NCBI GenBank assembly: GCA_020848455.1
Contig: JADLAB010000011.1
Span: forward strand, 1-41,092
Length of the DNA stretch: 41,092 nucleotides
Source: Polyangiaceae bacterium
GTDB lineage: Bacteria; Myxococcota_A; Polyangia; Polyangiales; Polyangiaceae
Reading direction: 5' to 3'
Under the pieces are notes generated by a model. The model worked only from the letters and a program-made list of their open reading frames with translations. It made no database searches and was not told where the DNA came from. The position numbers and the translations under genes are program-made. Below, piece after piece: positions 5,539 through 40,269 of this stretch. Position 1 is the stretch's first letter; each line of letters opens with the position of its first letter.

Positions 5539-5567
5539 TTGCCCATCGGTTCGAAAGAACCGCCTGT

Positions 5568-5650
5568 GGGTCCGCCGACAGCGCATCGTGAACCCCGCCA
5601 GGCCCGGAAGGGTGCAACGGTAGCGGGAAGCGGGTGTGGCGGGCCCTTTC
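5568..5650 (+). ncRNA. ffs: Signal recognition particle 4.5S RNA, short bacterial type
   Basis: The universally conserved SRP domain IV is present: CCAGGCCCGGAAGGG at 5598-5612 followed by TGCAACGG, giving the GGAA tetraloop closed by C-C-C/G-G-G and the asymmetric loop that binds Ffh. The ends pair perfectly: GGGTCCGCC (5568-5576) with GGCGGGCCC (5638-5646), so the molecule folds into one long hairpin of about 80 nt with no Alu domain. A T-rich tract follows directly. The RNA with Ffh targets ribosomes making membrane and secreted proteins to FtsY. Upstream, CGGTTC-GAAA-GAACCG (5547-5562) forms a separate hairpin in the presumed leader. Confidence 0.93.
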
Positions 5651-5656
5651 CTTTTT
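5638..5656 (+). terminator. ffs: Intrinsic terminator of ffs
   Basis: The 3' strand of the SRP RNA terminal helix is followed immediately by TTTCCTTTTT (5647-5656), so the RNA's own hairpin can serve as the terminator stem. This is the longest T-rich run near any stem in the first 6 kb. Confidence 0.7.
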
Positions 5657-39176: not shown

Positions 39177-39216
39177 GTCCGCGGCTGCGCTAGGCTCGAG
39201 CCGAAGGAACCAACCG

Positions 39217-40269
39217 ATGACCCACCCACGCCTGACGAGCCTCGTCGCGGGCGGTGGCTGAGCGCGCAAGCTCGCCGCCGAGAGCCTGGTCCAGGCTCTG
39301 AAGCACCTCGTGCCCCGTACGCACCCGTGGATCGACGAGCGGCCCGGACCGCTCGACGACGCCGCGGTGGTGCGCCCGCCGGGCGCCCTGCGCTCGCTCG
39401 TGCTCACGGTCGACGTCATCACGCCCATCGTGGACGATCCGCGCGCCTTCGGGGCGATCGCGGCGGCGAACGCGCTGTCCGACGTGTGGGCGATGGGCGG
39501 CCGGCCCGAGGTCGCCCTCTCGTTCGTCGGCTTGCCGAACGACAAGCTCGGCCTCGAGGTCCTCGCCGAGGTGATGGCGGGCCTCGACGAGGCCTGCGCC
39601 CGGGCGCGCTGCGCCATCGTGGGCGGCCACACCATCCACGACACCGAGCCGAAGTGCGGTCTGTCGGTCGTCGGCAGCGTGGATCCGGCGCGCCTTTGGT
39701 CGCAGCGCGCGGCGCGCCCCGGCGACGTGCTCGTGCTCACGAAATCCATCGGCACGGGCCTGCTCGCCCAGGCGGCGCGCGCCGACCGCGCCGATCCGGC
39801 GGCCTTCGCCGAGGCGACCGCCCAGATGCTCGCCCTGAACGACGTCGCCTGCGAGGTCGGGCTCGAGCTCGGCGCCCACGCCGCGACCGACGTCACGGGC
39901 TTCGGCCTCCTCGGCCACCTGCGCCACCTGGTCGAGGCGGCCCGGATCGGCGCACGCCTCCGTGCCGCCGACGTGCCGCTGCTCCCGACCGCGCTCGAGC
40001 TCGCGGCCGAGGACTGCGTGCCGGGCGGCACCCGCAAGAACCTCGTCTACGCGGGGGCGATCACGCGCTTCGCACCCGCGCTCGGCGAGCCCATGCGCCT
40101 GGCGCTCGCGGACGCGCAGACCTCGGGTGGGCTGCTCCTGTGCCTTCCGGCGGAGGTGGCGGCCCGCGCCGTCGACACCCTGCGCGCCCGCGGCTGCGTA
40201 CGCTCGAGCGTCGTCGGCGAGCTCGTGGCGCTCGCCCCGGACGAGGCGCCCTACATCGAGGTCGGTTGA
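39217..40269 (+). CDS. selD: Selenide, water dikinase with in-frame UGA read as selenocysteine
   Basis: A 350-residue SelD if TGA 39259-39261 is read as Sec15. The frame is continuous through it: MTHPRLTSLVAGGG, U, ARKLAAESLVQALKHL, then TVDVITPIVDDPRAFGAIAAANALSDVWAMGGRPEVAL, DVTGFGLLGHLRHL and ADAQTSGGLL, all typical SelD. Sec15 aligns with catalytic Cys17 of E. coli SelD (GAGCGCK), followed here by A-R-K, so the conserved Lys is kept and the second Cys is Arg. A SECIS-like hairpin with a GGUC loop lies at 39281-39299. The enzyme makes selenophosphate from ATP and selenide. ATG 39217 follows AAGGA. Without read-through the gene would look broken or begin near 39310. Confidence 0.93.
39259..39299 (+). 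promoter_or_regulatory. selD: Sec UGA codon and bacterial SECIS hairpin
   Basis: UGA at 39259-39261 is followed 19 bases later by AGAGCCTG (39281-39288) pairing with CAGGCTCT (39292-39299). The apical sequence CCTGGTCCAGG shows the G-G-U-C loop found in the E. coli fdhF SECIS, the SelB-binding element. The loop starts about 26 bases after the UGA, in the usual range. Confidence 0.85.

Follow-up and report, generated by a model that had tools for sequence, protein, structure and literature searches.

The selD gene described here almost certainly encodes a selenide, water dikinase (SelD) that is itself a selenoprotein, with selenocysteine (Sec) inserted as residue 15 at an in-frame UGA by means of a SECIS hairpin. 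The reading frame, the alignment column in which the UGA falls, the hairpin, the way it accompanies UGA, and the presence of selA, selB and selC in the genome can all be observed directly; the actual insertion of Sec at position 15 and its catalytic role are predicted from them. The gene is located in a stretch of 41,092 nucleotides (the window), whose contig (C11) belongs to a 9.2-Mb assembly of 742 contigs (G000). The relevant features, with the evidence for each, are as follows (the congener is a second, independent assembly from the genus of the window):

39204..39209, + strand: Shine-Dalgarno-like AAGGAA upstream of the selD ATG (direct reading; conserved in the congener)
39217..40269, + strand: selD, selenide-water dikinase by sequence, 350 residues with predicted Sec15, ATG start (frame, TIGR00476, E. 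coli alignment, congener orthologue)
39259..39261, + strand: in-frame TGA, read as Sec15, at the column of E. coli SelD Cys17 (sequence, alignment)
39281..39299, + strand: predicted bacterial SECIS hairpin with an 8-bp stem and GUC (GGUCC) as apical loop (folding, recoding test, compensatory changes)
39310..40269, + strand: truncated 319-aa ORF with a GTG start, from a table-11 reading (genetic code table 11)

Only two TGA triplets are found in the frame 39217-40269 (+), the inner one at 39259-39261 and the terminal stop, and the frame is otherwise open. If the inner TGA is taken as a residue, the TIGR00476 selD profile matches the product with 317.9 bits (cut-off 125), and residues 5-312 cover positions 1-308 of 311 in the profile, the extent of a full-length equivalog. 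In the alignment to the E. coli SelD (PDB 3u0o), residue 5 falls on chain residue 7 and no gap is required across the TGA. A previous sequence-only reading of the window had claimed SelD homology on both sides of this triplet and had placed it at the position of Cys17 of the E. coli enzyme, and both claims hold, the TGA (U15) being exactly on Cys17. Lys18 falls on Lys20, so that the catalytic Cys/Sec and the conserved lysine are both accounted for, and the same U15/K18 arrangement of the N-terminal loop appears in the aligned SelD relatives. The column of E. coli Cys19 is occupied by Arg, and Ala, Ser or Arg are common there among the Sec forms. By its sequence the product of 39217-40269 is a full-length SelD (selenide, water dikinase), for which the selenide- and ATP-dependent formation of selenophosphate is the predicted function.

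Shortly after the UGA the transcript can form a hairpin of eight perfect base pairs (5' arm 39281-39288, loop GUC 39289-39291, 3' arm 39292-39299), which can equivalently be counted as 7 bp with a GGUCC loop. The published rules for bacterial SECIS elements (bSECIS) specify a loop of 3-9 nt with a G in the first two positions, located 16-37 nt after the UGA, and a minimum free energy of -7.5 kcal/mol or lower (PMC13188914). The selD hairpin satisfies them, with G at the first position of the loop GUC, a UGA-to-loop spacing of 27 nt and an energy of -14.4 kcal/mol for the best local fold (-12.8 with 10-nt arms). By these rules the putative element at 39281-39299 is a bacterial SECIS, and the GGUC-loop hairpin at the right distance that had been proposed from the letters alone is thus recovered. 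Rfam models run on the window matched no SECIS family.

One way to assess such a hairpin is to recode the gene synonymously with its own codons and fold the products in the allowed range. None of 300 recodings of selD reached -12.8 kcal/mol. Since in six Sec-containing relatives between 18 and 112 of 300 recodings were as stable as the native sequence, this test is weak evidence on single genes; the comparison across genes is strong. Among 11 distinct sequences of the family, 96.6% of the pair cells in the stem are paired, a figure that falls to about 52% when the partners are slid by one column. Two stem pairs have changed on both sides (compensatory changes), as in AGC...GCU versus GAC...GUC, where the change replaces Ser by Asp in the SelD protein.

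The sequence-only reading implied that selA, selB and selC exist elsewhere in the genome, and they do. The tRNA-Sec gene (selC) is at C410:2460-2553 (75.4 bits against a gathering threshold of 47, anticodon TCA), and ARAGORN also calls it a tRNA-SeC. It is adjoined, on the opposite strand, by selB (C410:486-2402, 293 bits), and selA is found at C326:78853-80190 (470 bits), both proteins scoring over their cut-offs. The assembly of the window hence carries the whole set expected of a genome with a bacterial selenoprotein gene. In the congener (G001, an 86% complete assembly) no selB was found over the cut-off. A single SelD-like gene was detected in G000, i.e. neither a second SelD nor one of the Cys type was seen in this assembly, and for SelU/ybbB (selenouridine) there were just weak matches of 25 residues below the cut-off.

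SelD as the only selenoprotein of a genome is a known special case (PMC1794560) and was rejected here, given a SelW-like selenoprotein gene and a formate dehydrogenase fragment that runs off the end of its contig. The SelW-like gene (L148:1309-1533, on G000:C480) has its TGA in a CxxU motif (IRILYCVVU), followed after 21 nt by a hairpin of 7 bp with a GGUCU loop (22 nt if counted to a 3-nt GUC loop). The GGUC core is common to this hairpin and that of selD, as expected for elements served by one SelB. The match to the formate dehydrogenase alpha subunit (FdhA) in G000 appears to extend to the contig end and the part with the TGA is missing; FdhA of the congener has a TGA in NRTUHAPSV. A hairpin GUCGUC-GGUCU-GGCGAC is possible there by eye, and the minimum-energy fold at that place is a different one.

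The TGA of selD is not particular to this assembly. It is present in the congener, whose SelD is 96% identical, and the two genes differ by 27 synonymous and 12 nonsynonymous codons but are identical over the 45 nt that span the TGA and the hairpin. Among named relatives the nearest SelD, with 96% identity, is that of 'Myxococcales bacterium NC_groundwater_1660_Pr3_B-0.1um_73_17' (L066), and the SelD of Minicystis rosea (L068) is laid out as in the window. Among the 29 SelD genes of the order with a readable active-site loop, 24 have TGA and five TGC at this column. In a broader set of genome contigs either TGA or Cys occupies it in Nitrospirota, Acidobacteriota, Bacillota, Chloroflexota, Actinomycetota and others. 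The alignment of N termini, a check proposed in the sequence-only reading, gave Sec or Cys at this column, with TGA in most relatives and TGC in the SelD of genome G033 (L007) and others. The residues that precede the TGA and those immediately behind it are conserved between families. The hairpin and the TGA go together in these genes: the longest qualifying stem reaches at least 6 bp in 73 of the 75 distinct sequences with TGA, against one of the 18 with Cys (p 3e-10 for stem length by Mann-Whitney, shared ancestry being ignored).

These comparisons bear on the two other ways of reading the triplet. The gene might be a pseudogene, or be translated solely as a truncated product from an internal start; read mechanically with table 11 only the open frame from GTG 39310 to 40269 (319 aa) is left, so gene callers would be expected to shorten it, as the sequence-only reading had warned. 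This product, however, would be deprived of the U/K active-site loop, and the excess of synonymous differences to the congener, the conserved N terminus around the TGA, and the Sec machinery in a genome where no second SelD was found all speak against it, so that we regard it as highly improbable and have rejected it on conservation. Less credible still, to the point of being ruled out, is that an error of sequencing or assembly has put TGA in the place of TGC or TGT in the gene of an ordinary Cys enzyme, a condition named already in the sequence-only reading and conceivable in principle for a single base of a draft in 742 contigs (G033 does have a Cys form), but at odds with the same TGA in an independent assembly of the genus and in most of the order, and with a hairpin that accompanies TGA but has decayed where the gene has Cys.

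Bacteria are known to incorporate Sec by a pathway in which SelB, loaded with Sec-tRNA-Sec, binds a hairpin in the mRNA and Sec is inserted at the UGA, and in which SelD provides the selenophosphate used by SelA. For the Sec-containing SelD of the window, the GGUC-loop hairpin just past the UGA of the selD mRNA would be bound by SelB carrying Sec-tRNA-Sec, and the ribosome would incorporate Sec15 with no stop. The full SelD would convert selenide and ATP into selenophosphate, with Sec15 and Lys18 in its N-terminal loop, and SelA would use this product to turn Ser-tRNA-Sec into Sec-tRNA-Sec, which would be needed in turn for more SelD, for the SelW-like protein and probably for formate dehydrogenase. 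Because only one SelD-like gene is present in G000, the synthesis of selenophosphate appears to require its own product, as originally suggested, and this self-dependence looks complete here because the assembly shows no Cys-type SelD.

Sec-containing SelD has long been known and the present one adds a case. It is the second largest family of prokaryotic selenoproteins (PMC13188914) and makes up 19% of SelD (PMC4561486); a list of 38 examples includes another myxobacterium, Anaeromyxobacter dehalogenans (PMC1794560). A literature search on myxobacterial SelD retrieved nothing relevant. With the members of the Sec-SelD/SPS2 family our protein shares the UGA at the catalytic Cys column, the bSECIS within the coding sequence right after it and selA, selB and selC in the genome; nothing essential differs, apart from the Arg at the Cys19 column and a SECIS spacing of 27 nt instead of 33 nt, the commonest in the set examined. 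The E. coli protein is by sequence the same enzyme, aligned ungapped over the active-site loop, but with Cys in place of Sec, which makes recoding unnecessary. The Cys-SelD of G033 is 65% identical and of the same family, but has TGC in place of the Sec codon, and its hairpin is degraded. Our reading restores the full length of a selenium enzyme whose annotation by standard callers would be too short, and indicates that this myxobacterial family uses selenocysteine. Its relatives provide natural Sec/Cys pairs and varied SECIS distances for studying the gain and loss of Sec.

A mildly new point is that the distance from the UGA to the SECIS loop in selD is clade-specific, being 18, 20, 27 or 33 nt (SelD loci L005-L034 and L066-L145). 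It is 27 nt in Nannocystaceae and in the majority of Sec forms from the window's family, 18 nt in Kofleriaceae-like Myxococcota, 20 nt mainly in Acidobacteriota (Bryobacterales and Terriglobia), and 33 nt in Anaeromyxobacter, Nitrospirota, Lachnospiraceae and others. The clade-specific distances therefore suggest that the SECIS was rebuilt at different codons of selD. The Cys form of G033 (G033:C1:8678675-8679688) is nested with good support inside a Sec clade, its hairpin has decayed and the genome keeps selA and selB (both over the cut-off); as judged from the tree, this is a change from Sec to Cys. In the Kofleriaceae-like Myxococcota (L071, L074, L075, L077, L078, L081, L083, L086, L091, L096, L097 and L102), Sec forms with the SECIS at 18 nt and Cys forms are intermingled. 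This mixture and the new distance are compatible with a regain of Sec. Trees that keep the Sec rows of this group together, or its Cys rows, are not rejected (p-AU 0.155 and 0.166), and we consider it rather unlikely that the SECIS was rebuilt across lineages with Sec in this group lost to Cys and then regained at a new SECIS position. If true, this would document, beyond Pasteurellales, one of the rare reversals from Cys to Sec.

Two minor observations can be added. In a relative (contig G028:C657, L047) a selD-like match (127-1065) is directly followed on the same strand by selB (1213-2469), forming a selD-selB pair. The window itself contains, at 5565-5652 (+), a bacterial small SRP RNA (49.6 bits with Rfam).
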